From Verrucomicrobiota bacterium (GTDB taxonomy: Bacteria; Verrucomicrobiota; Verrucomicrobiia; Chthoniobacterales; UBA10450), in the NCBI GenBank assembly GCA_003218705.1, contig QHOI01000050.1, forward strand, positions 1 to 36,234: a stretch of 36,234 nucleotides of DNA. Reading direction: 5' to 3'. This document shows positions 26,360 to 31,506 of this stretch, piece after piece (the stretch's first letter is position 1; each line of letters opens with the position of its first letter). Below the pieces are notes generated by a model, which did not search any database, was not told the origin of the DNA, and saw nothing but the letters and a program-made list of their open reading frames with translations. Position numbers and translations under genes: made by a program.

Positions 26360-27484
26360 ATGCTCAGCGCCGGAATAGTTGGACTGCCAAACGTCGGGAA
26401 ATCGACGCTGTTCAATGCCGTCACCCGCACGCACAACGCGCCGGCGGAAAATTATCCTTTTTGCACCATCGATCCCAACGTCGGCGTCGTCACGGTGCCT
26501 GATCCGCGGCTGGAAAAACTCGGCCAGCTCTCGCATTCGAAAAAAATCGTGCCGACCGCCATCCAATTTGTCGATATCGCCGGCCTGGTGAAAGGCGCGA
26601 GCGCGGGCGAAGGACTCGGTAACCAATTTCTTAGTTACATCCGCGAAGTCGACGCGATCGTGCAGGTCGTGCGCTGCTTTGCCGACGCGGACGTCCATCA
26701 CGTCAGCGCCACGATCGATCCGATTCGAGACATTGAAGTCATTAACACTGAGCTGGTGTTGGCCGATCTTGCGTCGCTCCAGAAGCGGTCCGATCGATTG
26801 CAAAAAGAAGTTCGCGCCGGCGAGAAAAGCGCGAAAATCGAAAACGCCGTCGCCGAAAAACTTTTGCCGCATCTCGATTCCGGGAAACCGGCGATTACGG
26901 CGCCGCTTGAGTCCGAGGAAAAAATGGTGGCGCGAAATTTCTTTCTCCTGACTTCAAAGCCGACTCTTTTTGCCTGCAACGTCGCTGAGACCGATCTGGC
27001 AGCGGTGGCAAAGAATGATCAAACAAATGCCGCCGCGAAGTATGTCGATCTTGTCCAGGATTACGCGCAACATCATTTCGGAACGGAAGCTTTCGTAATT
27101 AGCGCCAGGATCGAAAGCGAACTTGCCGATCTGAGCGAGGAGGAAGCGCTCGAGTATCTGCGCGGTCTTGGCGTTGAAGACAGCGGCGTTCATGCGCTCA
27201 TTCGCGCGGTCTATCATTTGCTTGGCTTGCGAACATTTTTGACGACGGGTGAAAAAGAAACGCGCGCTTGGACTATTCACGCCGGCGAAAAAGCGCCCGC
27301 TGCCGCGGGTGCGATCCATTCCGATTTCGAACGCGGTTTCATTGCAGCGGAAACGATTGCTTATGGCGATTTGATCGCGCTTGGCTCCTTCGCAAAAGCA
27401 CGCGAAGCAGGGAAACTACGCATCGAAGGCAAGGATTACGAAGTCCGCGACGGTGACGTGATGACGTTTCGGTTCAACGTCTGA
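26360..27484 (+). CDS. ychF: Redox-regulated ATPase/GTP-binding protein YchF
   Basis: [55 protein letters not shown]-terminal TGS-like domain [49 protein letters not shown]. Confidence 0.97.
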
Positions 27485-27487
27485 GCG

Positions 27488-28192
27488 CTATCGCGCGACG
27501 TAAAGGATTCGGCCGCACTGTTCGCAGTTGACAATTTCCTTGCCGGCCTCCGCATCTTTCACCGTGGCGGTGGTCAATTTCATGTGGCAACCGGTGCAAA
27601 CGCCATGCTCGACCGCGACAATGGCTGAGTCGCCTTTGCTCGCGAACAGGCGCTCGAACCGATTCAGCAAGTCCTCATCCATCGTTTCCGCCAATTCTTT
27701 TCGCTCCTTCGATAACTCCTGCAGGCGCGTTTCGAGTGCTTTCGATTTTTCGCCGAGATCGTTCATTTGCCGTGAAATCGAGTCCTTGGTCGCGCTGGCT
27801 TTTTTTTCCTCAGCCGTAACTTCAACCTTCAACTTGTCCCCTTGCTCCATCAGCTCGAGTTCCTGGTCTTCGAGCTTCCGAATTTCGTCCTCGTAACGCT
27901 GGATCTCGTTACCCATCGCCTGAAATTCGTCGTTCTTGCGGGTCTGATACTGCTGGGTCTTCAAGCGCGCGATACTCTCGTTGCGTGTGCCGACATCGAG
28001 CTCCAGCCTCTTGCGTTCGATTTCGACTTGTCGCGCTTTCTGCTTGAGGGCCTCCAAACTGGCAGCGCTTTCCGCCAGCTGCAACTCGAGATGCTTTCGT
28101 TGCAGCGGCAGATTTTTTATCTCGTTCTCGATTTGCCTGATCTTTTGCTGTCGATCTTGAAGGACGAGTAGTTGTTCAAGTTCCGCCTGCAC
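27488..28192 (-). CDS. Coiled-coil protein with C4 zinc ribbon (DUF164/CT398 type)
   Basis: Long coiled coil then CTGCHMKLT...CEQCGRILY. Confidence 0.9.
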   Translation of the reverse strand: MQAELEQLLVLQDRQQKIRQIENEIKNLPLQRKHLELQLAESAASLEALKQKARQVEIERKRLELDVGTRNESIARLKTQQYQTRKNDEFQAMGNEIQRYEDEIRKLEDQELELMEQGDKLKVEVTAEEKKASATKDSISRQMNDLGEKSKALETRLQELSKERKELAETMDEDLLNRFERLFASKGDSAIVAVEHGVCTGCHMKLTTATVKDAEAGKEIVNCEQCGRILYVAR

Positions 28193-28225
28193 GTGCGCTG
28201 AAGTTATTAAGTCGGCGAAGCGGCG

Positions 28226-29011
28226 TCAATCGCGCCGGCCACCTTTGGCCGCATCGATCGCGTGCAGCGCTTGTTCCGGTCGCGCACGCACCGCGATGTT
28301 TTCGGTCAAGTTCGCCCACCGCACCGTGCCGCTCGCATCAACGTAAAACTCAGCTGGACGTGCGATGTCCGCGTTCTTTGGCCCGGCCCCGCGATGAAGC
28401 AGATCGTAACGGCGAATGACTGCCGCGTCCGCATCAGAAAGAAGCGGAAAGGCGAAGCCCATTTTCTGAGAATGCCCGCGATTTATTTCGACGGAATCGA
28501 CGCTGATGACCGCGACATGCACACCGCGCCCAGTGAAATCCGAAAGGTGATTCTGAAAACTCCGCAACTCGGAGTTACAGAGCGGTCACCAGTGTCCCCG
28601 ATAAAAAATCAGCACCGCTCCGTTGGGAGAAAGCAGATCCCCCAATGCCACTGACTTGCCATTTTGGTCTGGCAATGAAAACTCCGGCGCTTTTGCCCCG
28701 ACGCGCGGCGCTTGTGCTGAAAGCGGGACTTGTCGAAGCACATAAAAAATCTCGTAGGCAAAAAAAGCGAAGAGAAAAAGGCTGATCGTAGCGAAGATCG
28801 ATCCGAAAACTTTACCGCGATAAACTTGCGGCCGCCCAAAGGCGCGGAACAGACCCACCAGCAGCAGAGCGGCGCCGATCCCAAACAACAAAAGATTCGC
28901 CCACGGAAAATCGCGCGTCATCGGAAACTCCGCGAAAAATTCGTAACTAAACAGGCCGCCGACAGCGACAACGAAACCAACCCAGAGCGGCCAATTCCAT
29001 TTCCGTTTCAC
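28226..29011 (-). CDS. Candidate selenoprotein: membrane-anchored AhpC/TSA (peroxiredoxin-like) protein with in-frame TGA at the catalytic Cys
   Basis: Two track ORFs (28586-29011 and 28226-28567) lie in one frame separated only by TGA at 28586-28588; conceptual product ..LPDQNGKSVALGDLLSPNGAVLIFYRGHW-U-PLCNSELRSFQNHLSDFTGRGVHVAVISVDS..; GTG start, three N-terminal TM segments. Confidence 0.75.
28552..28581 (-). promoter_or_regulatory. Putative bacterial SECIS hairpin
   Basis: Minus strand after TGA: CCGC-TCTG-T-AACTCCG-AGTTG-CGGAGTT-TT-CAGA; 7-bp upper and 4-bp lower stem, 16 nt from TGA to apical loop, G at loop position 2. Confidence 0.6.
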
Positions 29012-29058
29012 AGACTCACGAATACCGAGTCAGCATTCGATTGCAAGATCGACATCGG

Positions 29059-29110
29059 TGCAGCCACGTTGCTATACGACGTCACACGGCCCACAGGGCC
29101 GTGGCTACAA
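29059..29110 (+). repeat. REP/MITE-like palindromic element, divergent third copy
   Basis: Ends TGCAGCCACG / CGTGGCTACA (9/10 inverted), internal CGGCCC-ACA-GGGCCG hairpin. Confidence 0.65.
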
Positions 29111-29157
29111 AGAAACACGCTTGCGCTTTATCGAACTTTTCTGAAAGGTCTCCGCCA

Positions 29158-31506
29158 GTGGCGATTGTCGACACCGAGCAGGAGTATCCCGATATCGTCG
29201 GCGCACGACCGACCAATCCGCTCGCGGCGAACTTCAAACCGTTCATTCCGCCGTCGGTGCGTTTGCCAGAATTAACGCTGCCGCATCTCATTATCGGCAC
29301 GCTTCTCGGAATCGTTTTTGGGGCGTCGTCGCTTTATCTTGTTCTCAAAGTGGGATTGACCGTGAGTGCGTCGATCCCGGTGGCCGTAATTTCGATCACG
29401 ATCTTCCGACTCTTCGCCAAATTCGGATTTCGCGACGCGAACGTTTTGCAGAATAACATCGTCCAAACCGCGGGTTCGGCCGGCGAATCAATCGCGTTCG
29501 GTCTCGGCGTCACCATGCCCGCGATCATGATTCTCGGTTTCGATTTGGAAATTACCCGTGTCATGCTGGTCGCCATCCTGGGCGGTTTGTTGGGCATTCT
29601 CATGATGATCCCGTTGCGGCGCGCGTTGATCGTCGACCAACACGGCCTGCTCAAGTATCCCGAAGGCACCGCTTGCGCCGAAGTGTTGAAAGCAGCCGCT
29701 TCCAAAGAATCGCTCACCGTCGCCGACCAAACGCACACGACCACCGGTGCCGAGATTGTGAATGAAGAAGCAGCCGGTGGCGGCAAAGTGATCTTCTCCG
29801 GTTTCGGGATCGGCTTCGCTTACCAGTCGGTGATGGGTGCGTTCAAAATGTGGAAGAGCGATCCGGTCAAAGTGTTCGACGCTCCGTTCAAAGGCGGATC
29901 GATCTCAGCCACGATCGAGCCTGCGTTGCTCGGTGTTGGCTATATCATTGGACCACGCATCGCTTCGATCATGTGCGCGGGCGGCGTGCTCGCTTATCTC
30001 GTTTTGATTCCGGCGATCAAATTTTTCGGCGAACACGTGACCGGGGCGGTCGCTCCCGGAACAATTCCGATTTCGGAGATGAGCCCGGACCAAGTCCGCG
30101 GCGCTTATATTCTTTACATCGGCGCGGGCGCAGTTGCCGCCGGCGGCATCATCAGCCTAATTCGTTCGCTGCCCACGATCTGGCACGGTTTAAAAGGCGG
30201 GCTGGCCGATTTGCGCGGCGGCCACGCTGCGAGCTCGCGCGCGCCACGAACGGATCAGGACTTATCGATGAAGATTGTCATCGGTGGCGTCATCTTTCTC
30301 CTCCTTGTGATGATGGTCGCTCCGCAGTTGCATCTGCAATGGAATCTGCTCGGCGCACTTTTGATTGTCGCTTTCGGTTTTCTTTTCGTAACCGTTTCGT
30401 CGCGCCTGACCGGCGAAATCGGTTCATCTTCAAACCCGATTTCTGGAATGACGGTTGCAACGTTGTTGCTGACCTGCCTGGTTTTCCTGATCGTTGGCTG
30501 GACCGGGCCGCATTATTTTGTGACCGCGCTTTCGATCGGCGGAATTGTCTGCATCGCCGCGTCCAACGGAGGCACGACGTCGCAGGATTTGAAAACCGGT
30601 TTTCTGGTTGGATCGACACCGAAATTTCAACAAATCGCGATCCTCTGCGGCGCGCTTGCCTCCGCGATTGCCCTTGGCCCGATCCTGTTGATGCTAAATG
30701 ATCGCAACAACGTGTATGTGCCGGTTCCGCCGAGCACCGAGTTGCATGCGCCGGCCGAAGAACTTGGCCGATCCGAAAAACTACAGGGGCCGCAAGGACA
30801 AACTGATCAGAACACATATCGGGTTTGGCAGCGGCTCGATCCCGGCGGTGGCGCCGCCCAGCGCTACCTGGTGAACGACCAAGGTGTGCCCGTTTACCTT
30901 GTCGATCCTGGAATCAACGGCACCCATAAAATACGACCCAACGGTTCCTCGGTAATGAAATTCGACGCGCCAAAAGCAACGCTAATGTCGTACATCATTA
31001 AAGGAATTCTCAGCCGCAAACTTCCGTGGGCACTTGTGTTACTTGGAGTAATGATCGCGATCGTGCTGGAGATGAGCGGGATTCCTTCGCTTGCGTTTGC
31101 GGTCGGCGTTTATCTTCCACTGGCTTCTTCCAGCCCAATTTTCATCGGCGGAATGATCCGCCTGCTCGTTGATCGCTACTTAAAAGTAAAATTCCGTCAC
31201 AAGAATTTGTCCGACGTTGAACTGACTGCCGAAGGCGATAAAAGCCACGGTGTGTTGCTTGCCTCCGGATACATCGCCGGTGGTGCGCTGGCCGGCATCG
31301 TGATCGCGTTTATGGCCGGCGTGCCAAGCCTTGTCGATGTAAGCAAACGAATCGAGGATTGGTCCACCGCGAACAATCCCTTCTTCGATGGCGCGAACGC
31401 AAATCTCCTCGCTTTACTTCCATTCGCGGTCCTGTGCGCTCTGCTCTATCTCGTCGGCCGGGATGTGTTGCTCGCCGCTAGGCCGCGACACGGAAAACTT
31501 CAATAG
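29158..31506 (+). CDS. OPT family oligopeptide transporter
   Basis: Multi-[74 protein letters not shown] start at 29158 preferred over 29041. Confidence 0.92.

Follow-up and report, generated by a model that had tools for sequence, protein, structure and literature searches.

A 'Prx-like' selenoprotein family with a UXXC motif has been set apart from the Sec-peroxiredoxins (Sec-Prx), which carry TXXU (PMC1088965), and the UxxC/UxxU family is listed as Prx-like thiol:disulfide oxidoreductase (PF00578) in Table 1 of PMC13188914. The locus described here lies on the minus strand of a 36,234-nt window, the whole stretch of DNA that was analyzed, from the genome designated G000, and very probably holds a single unbroken gene that encodes a Prx-like thiol/selenol oxidoreductase anchored in the membrane, with the UGA at codon 142 decoded as selenocysteine (Sec). 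Its PF00578 domain has UxxC in place of TxxU, and by this motif and domain definition we place it with the Prx-like UxxC selenoproteins, from which it differs by three N-terminal membrane helices and by the fact that only a Sec form was found, in two Verrucomicrobiota families. SelL-related proteins (NF040769) have a related domain, but the SelL type is UxxU whereas a single Sec is present here, and the match reached 43.9 bits against a curated cut-off of 120. ResA/TlpA-type oxidoreductases are held by one membrane anchor. They share the membrane tether and a WCxxC-type motif with our protein, and the ResA subfamily was its best NCBIfam match (52 bits, cut-off 170), whereas the fold here matches AhpE/BcpB and the helices number three. 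This three-helix, Sec-only architecture has apparently not been described before; a literature search found no paper on selenoproteins of the clade, although such an absence is weak evidence.

Two minus-strand ORFs, one of 141 aa with a GTG start (28586-29011) and one at 28226-28567, share one frame with a sole internal TGA between them, and reading through it gives a product of 261 aa terminated by a normal TGA at 28226. A first-pass annotation of this DNA had proposed exactly this joining across the single TGA (28586-28588) into 261 aa, and our re-reading of the ORFs and the frame agreed. The gene (28226..29011, minus strand, 261 codons plus stop) starts with GTG at 29011, and the start codon of its relatives, in the same position, is ATG or GTG. 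The encoded protein begins with three transmembrane helices, each seen in both hydropathy and the AlphaFold model: helix 1 at about residues 7-26 (28934..28993, minus strand; AlphaFold helix 7-21), helix 2 at residues 37-59 (28835..28903, minus strand) and helix 3 at residues 67-91 (28739..28813, minus strand). These are followed by an AhpC/TSA (redoxin) domain at residues 104-239 (28295..28702, minus strand), where Pfam AhpC-TSA matched residues 104-232 (E=2.6e-28) and Redoxin residues 104-239; since the match lies on both sides of the TGA, the domain spans it. The order of three membrane segments and then an AhpC/TSA domain, as originally annotated, is thus borne out by hydropathy, AlphaFold helices and Pfam alike. 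The predicted AlphaFold fold, with three N-terminal helices and the domain, has a mean pLDDT of 85 and exceeds 95 over much of the domain; U142, modelled as Cys, opens helix 143-154, and the best Foldseek matches were BcpB and AhpE, with a TM-score of ~0.9 on the target. Positively charged residues are found at the N-terminus (KRK) and in the second loop (RAFGRPQVYRGK), and by the positive-inside rule the domain would lie outside the cytoplasm, probably in the periplasm.

The in-frame TGA (28586..28588, minus strand) encodes the predicted Sec142, the U of a UPLC motif, and Cys145 (TGT; 28577..28579, minus strand) is the second named residue of UxxC. In phmmer alignments with M. tuberculosis AhpE and Aeropyrum PrxQ, U142 is matched to the Thr of the AhpE TxxC motif, a position held by Ser in the Aeropyrum protein, and Cys145 is matched to the peroxidatic Cys; the remaining Prx catalytic residues are, by our reading, not aligned in them. 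The protein shares the fold superfamily of the PrxU-type Sec-peroxiredoxins (TxxU), and its best structural matches are the 1-Cys Prx AhpE and BcpB. A Sec-peroxiredoxin would have its Sec in the peroxidatic column and a Thr or Ser three residues earlier; here a Cys fills that column, and the Sec stands three residues before it, in the Thr position. This arrangement puts the protein with the Prx-like UxxC selenoproteins and not with the Sec-peroxiredoxins (TxxU). The earlier placement of the TGA at the Sec-Prx catalytic site with a Cys at +3 accordingly holds for the UxxC motif and its Cys, but not for the site itself. Another AhpC/TSA protein, 36% identical and reading FRSADW-TGA-PHC, was seen at positions 1501-1965 of locus L264 in G171, a genome with a tRNA-Sec, and is likely a second Prx-like UxxC selenoprotein.

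We searched for homologues in 58 genomes, comprising the window's own and relatives from its genus, family and order, and a class-wide sample of 384 genomes contributed G373. The matching internal TGA was found in G003, G034, G017, G001, G002, G010, G013, G018 and G016. It was also present in a copy truncated by a contig edge (G005), in a copy damaged elsewhere (G021), in a copy from a genome collection (AV36, L048) and in G373, which belongs to another family and is 59% identical. Together with the window's copy, the TGA occupies the same column in 14 of 14 readable copies from two Verrucomicrobiota families at 59-90% identity, the copies of G003 and G034 being 90% identical to ours; a second TGA in G010 falls outside the frame as later read. 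In contrast, outside homologues carrying the FYRGxW motif, which come from other phyla, have TGC or TGT (Cys) at this column in every case, and the homologue searches found no orthologue that combines the N-terminal anchor with a sense codon there. Nei-Gojobori dN/dS was well below 1 on either side of the TGA (for G000-G017, 0.09 before and 0.11 after), in keeping with the initial view that the domain after the TGA is intact and not part of an old decayed pseudogene. Three damaged copies were observed, in genomes that still have sel genes: an internal-deletion remnant in G027 (L258, 4145-4400), a copy in G021 (L025) that contains a TAG and whose N-terminus is shifted, and one in G002 (L019) that has lost its C-terminus and is joined to downstream sequence.

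The sequence directly after the TGA is constrained beyond its coding role. Codons +4 to +9 read AAC TCC GAG TTG CGG AGT in all 13 aligned copies, as well as in G373, whereas other columns with an invariant residue were codon-invariant in only 5 of 74, one of these being the TGA column (Fisher P=9e-6). The copies are related and hence not independent observations, but each supplies its own control in its remaining columns. These codons form a predicted bacterial SECIS hairpin, AACTCCG-AGTTG-CGGAGTT (28558..28576, minus strand), which begins 9 nt downstream of the UGA and has a 7-bp stem, a loop of 5 nt whose second base is G and third base U, a distance of 16 nt between the UGA and the loop, and a core energy of -8.4 kcal/mol. 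Published rules for bacterial SECIS elements ask for a loop of 3-9 nt, a stem of 4-16 bp, a G in the first two loop positions, a spacing of 16-37 nt and an energy of at most -7.5 (PMC13188914), and the hairpin conforms to each of them. Synonymous recodings gave a stem this long under the same rules in 1.6% of cases, and matched the stability of the first 45 nt in 0.3%. Because the stem is invariant in all copies, no compensatory changes support it, and most copies could also adopt a different, 11-bp fold, which counts against the assignment. The stretch is a clear example of a SECIS that holds coding sequence fixed even at synonymous sites. SelD of this clade has its own in-frame TGA in most genomes (selD loci L183-L192), with TGC instead in G018 (L182), and by eye this TGA is likewise followed by a hairpin with AGTT near its apex.

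We then compared the occurrence of the decoding machinery with that of the gene. SelB scored above its curated cut-off in 10 of 13 carriers, a count that takes in the deletion remnant of G027, versus 2 of 9 tested family members without the gene. In nine of the 13, tRNA-Sec, SelD and SelA were also above cut-off, and the same nine hold the full selC-selD-selA-selB set, arranged in this order and followed by AddB/AddA-like genes. The RNAs submitted to ARAGORN were typed as tRNA-SeC (anticodon TCA), and G373 has a tRNA-Sec too. A complete Sec gene set is thereby shown in uncultured soil Verrucomicrobiota. The original reading of the UGA as Sec, in a column where homologues have Cys, is upheld by the TGA in 14 copies, the outside Cys, the SECIS-type hairpin and the co-occurrence of selA/B/C/D, and at the level of the clade we regard the gene as a selenoprotein gene with high confidence. 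Elsewhere in the set, G006 has a tRNA-Sec match above cut-off (58 bits; C340:26405-26500, L164) although no SelA, SelB or SelD there reaches its own cut-off, and G009 and G015 (L228, L229) have full sel genes and no copy of our gene, so other selenoproteins must be present there.

The window's own genome (1.70 Mb in 214 contigs, 78.7% complete) and its closest relatives G003 and G034 (about 80%) contain none of selA, selB, selC and selD as assembled. Its candidate tRNA-Sec matches were discarded, as the eight that were typed, all but the three weakest, proved to be ordinary tRNAs for Leu, Cys, Ser, Phe, Gly and Trp; a SelB-like match on its contig C43 is EF-Tu, and tRNA matches at 48 bits in G003 and G034 are barely above the tRNA-Sec cut-off, within the range of other tRNAs. 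The first-pass annotation had named absence of these genes from the complete genome as a refutation, a wording that does not apply to an assembly of 78.7% completeness; the check it proposed gave a split outcome, negative in the genome itself and positive in most carriers.

These absences might mean that the lineage of G000, G003 and G034 recently lost selABCD, so that translation would now end at the UGA and decay of the 3' half would only be starting, which we regard as unlikely. The chance that incompleteness alone hid the operon in all three genomes is ~0.009, and damaged copies do occur elsewhere in the family, yet the probability of at least three misses among 13 carriers is 0.22, and the SECIS and the reading frame are intact in all three. 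The contig edges point the same way: in G034, AddB is present on a contig that stops within 27 bp of the expected selB overlap point, so that the sel region is cut there and a deletion is not demonstrated; the assemblies of G000 and G003 have no match to the neighboring AddB and no real match to AddA; and contig ends also cut the operon in G005, G013 and G021. We therefore favor an assembly gap over recent loss, with the sel operon of the window's organism probably on DNA outside its assembly. If the three genomes truly have no sel genes, this would be a selenoprotein caught just after the loss of its decoding machinery.

That the TGA is a nonsense mutation or sequencing artefact in a Cys gene is extremely improbable. 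In every carrier genome an automatic caller would report either a pair of fragments or a pseudogene, and the copies in G002, G021 and G027 are indeed damaged, but the same TGA recurs in 14 copies across many assemblies, purifying selection acts after it and the SECIS is conserved. Low-level read-through of UGA occurs in bacteria, and insertion of Trp or Cys by a near-cognate tRNA, or a changed genetic code, would also yield the full-length product. We give this very little probability, as the gene itself and several other long ORFs of the window terminate in TGA, the tRNA-Trp seen has anticodon CCA, and both the hairpin and the co-occurrence with sel genes would be left unexplained. Decoding as Sec in an intact gene thus stays the preferred reading, with the missing sel genes of G000, G003 and G034, the three damaged copies and the alternative hairpin fold counting against it.

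Under Sec decoding, SelB with Sec-tRNA-Sec would recognize the hairpin as a SECIS, and Sec would be inserted in place of termination. The product would be tethered by its three helices, with the domain probably periplasmic and the UPLC motif, with which a helix of the domain begins, cycling between selenol/thiol and selenenyl-sulfide to reduce peroxides or disulfides. By analogy with UxxC/CxxC chemistry, Sec would make the attack on the peroxide or disulfide, a selenenyl-sulfide with Cys145 would form, and a thiol donor would then re-reduce the motif. The gene is broken or deleted in some genomes, and a Cys version was seen in none of them. The chances appear evenly balanced that these proteins make up a Sec-only subfamily of the Prx-like selenoproteins, anchored in the membrane and fixed in soil Verrucomicrobiota, which would suggest a periplasmic reaction that needs selenium.

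The neighboring genes (OPT transporter, GH3 enzyme, zinc-ribbon protein and YchF) are conserved and point to no clear pathway. A CT398-like coiled-coil protein with a zinc ribbon (27488..28192, minus strand) is conserved beside the selenoprotein gene, and an OPT oligopeptide transporter (29041..31506, plus strand) lies on its other side as a divergent allele common to the window, G016 and G018. Synonymous divergence among G000, G003 and G034 was 0.05-0.13 after the TGA versus 0.37-0.66 before it. Constraint at the RNA level was rejected as the cause of the low dS, which extends far past the SECIS, and a comparison of window positions 27440-29011 with L044 and L045 gives a patchy pattern of similarity; recombination or mixed-strain assembly is therefore the more likely explanation. 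A chimeric contig had been suspected where homology to G003 and G034 stops at the gene start, and is explained by the alternative OPT-transporter allele, which has the same orientation in G016 and G018. Two alternative OPT transporters, ~31% identical, occur between the GH3 gene and the selenoprotein gene (window 29041-31506; L044, L045, L252, L253), and the transporter is divergently oriented in the window, G016 and G018.
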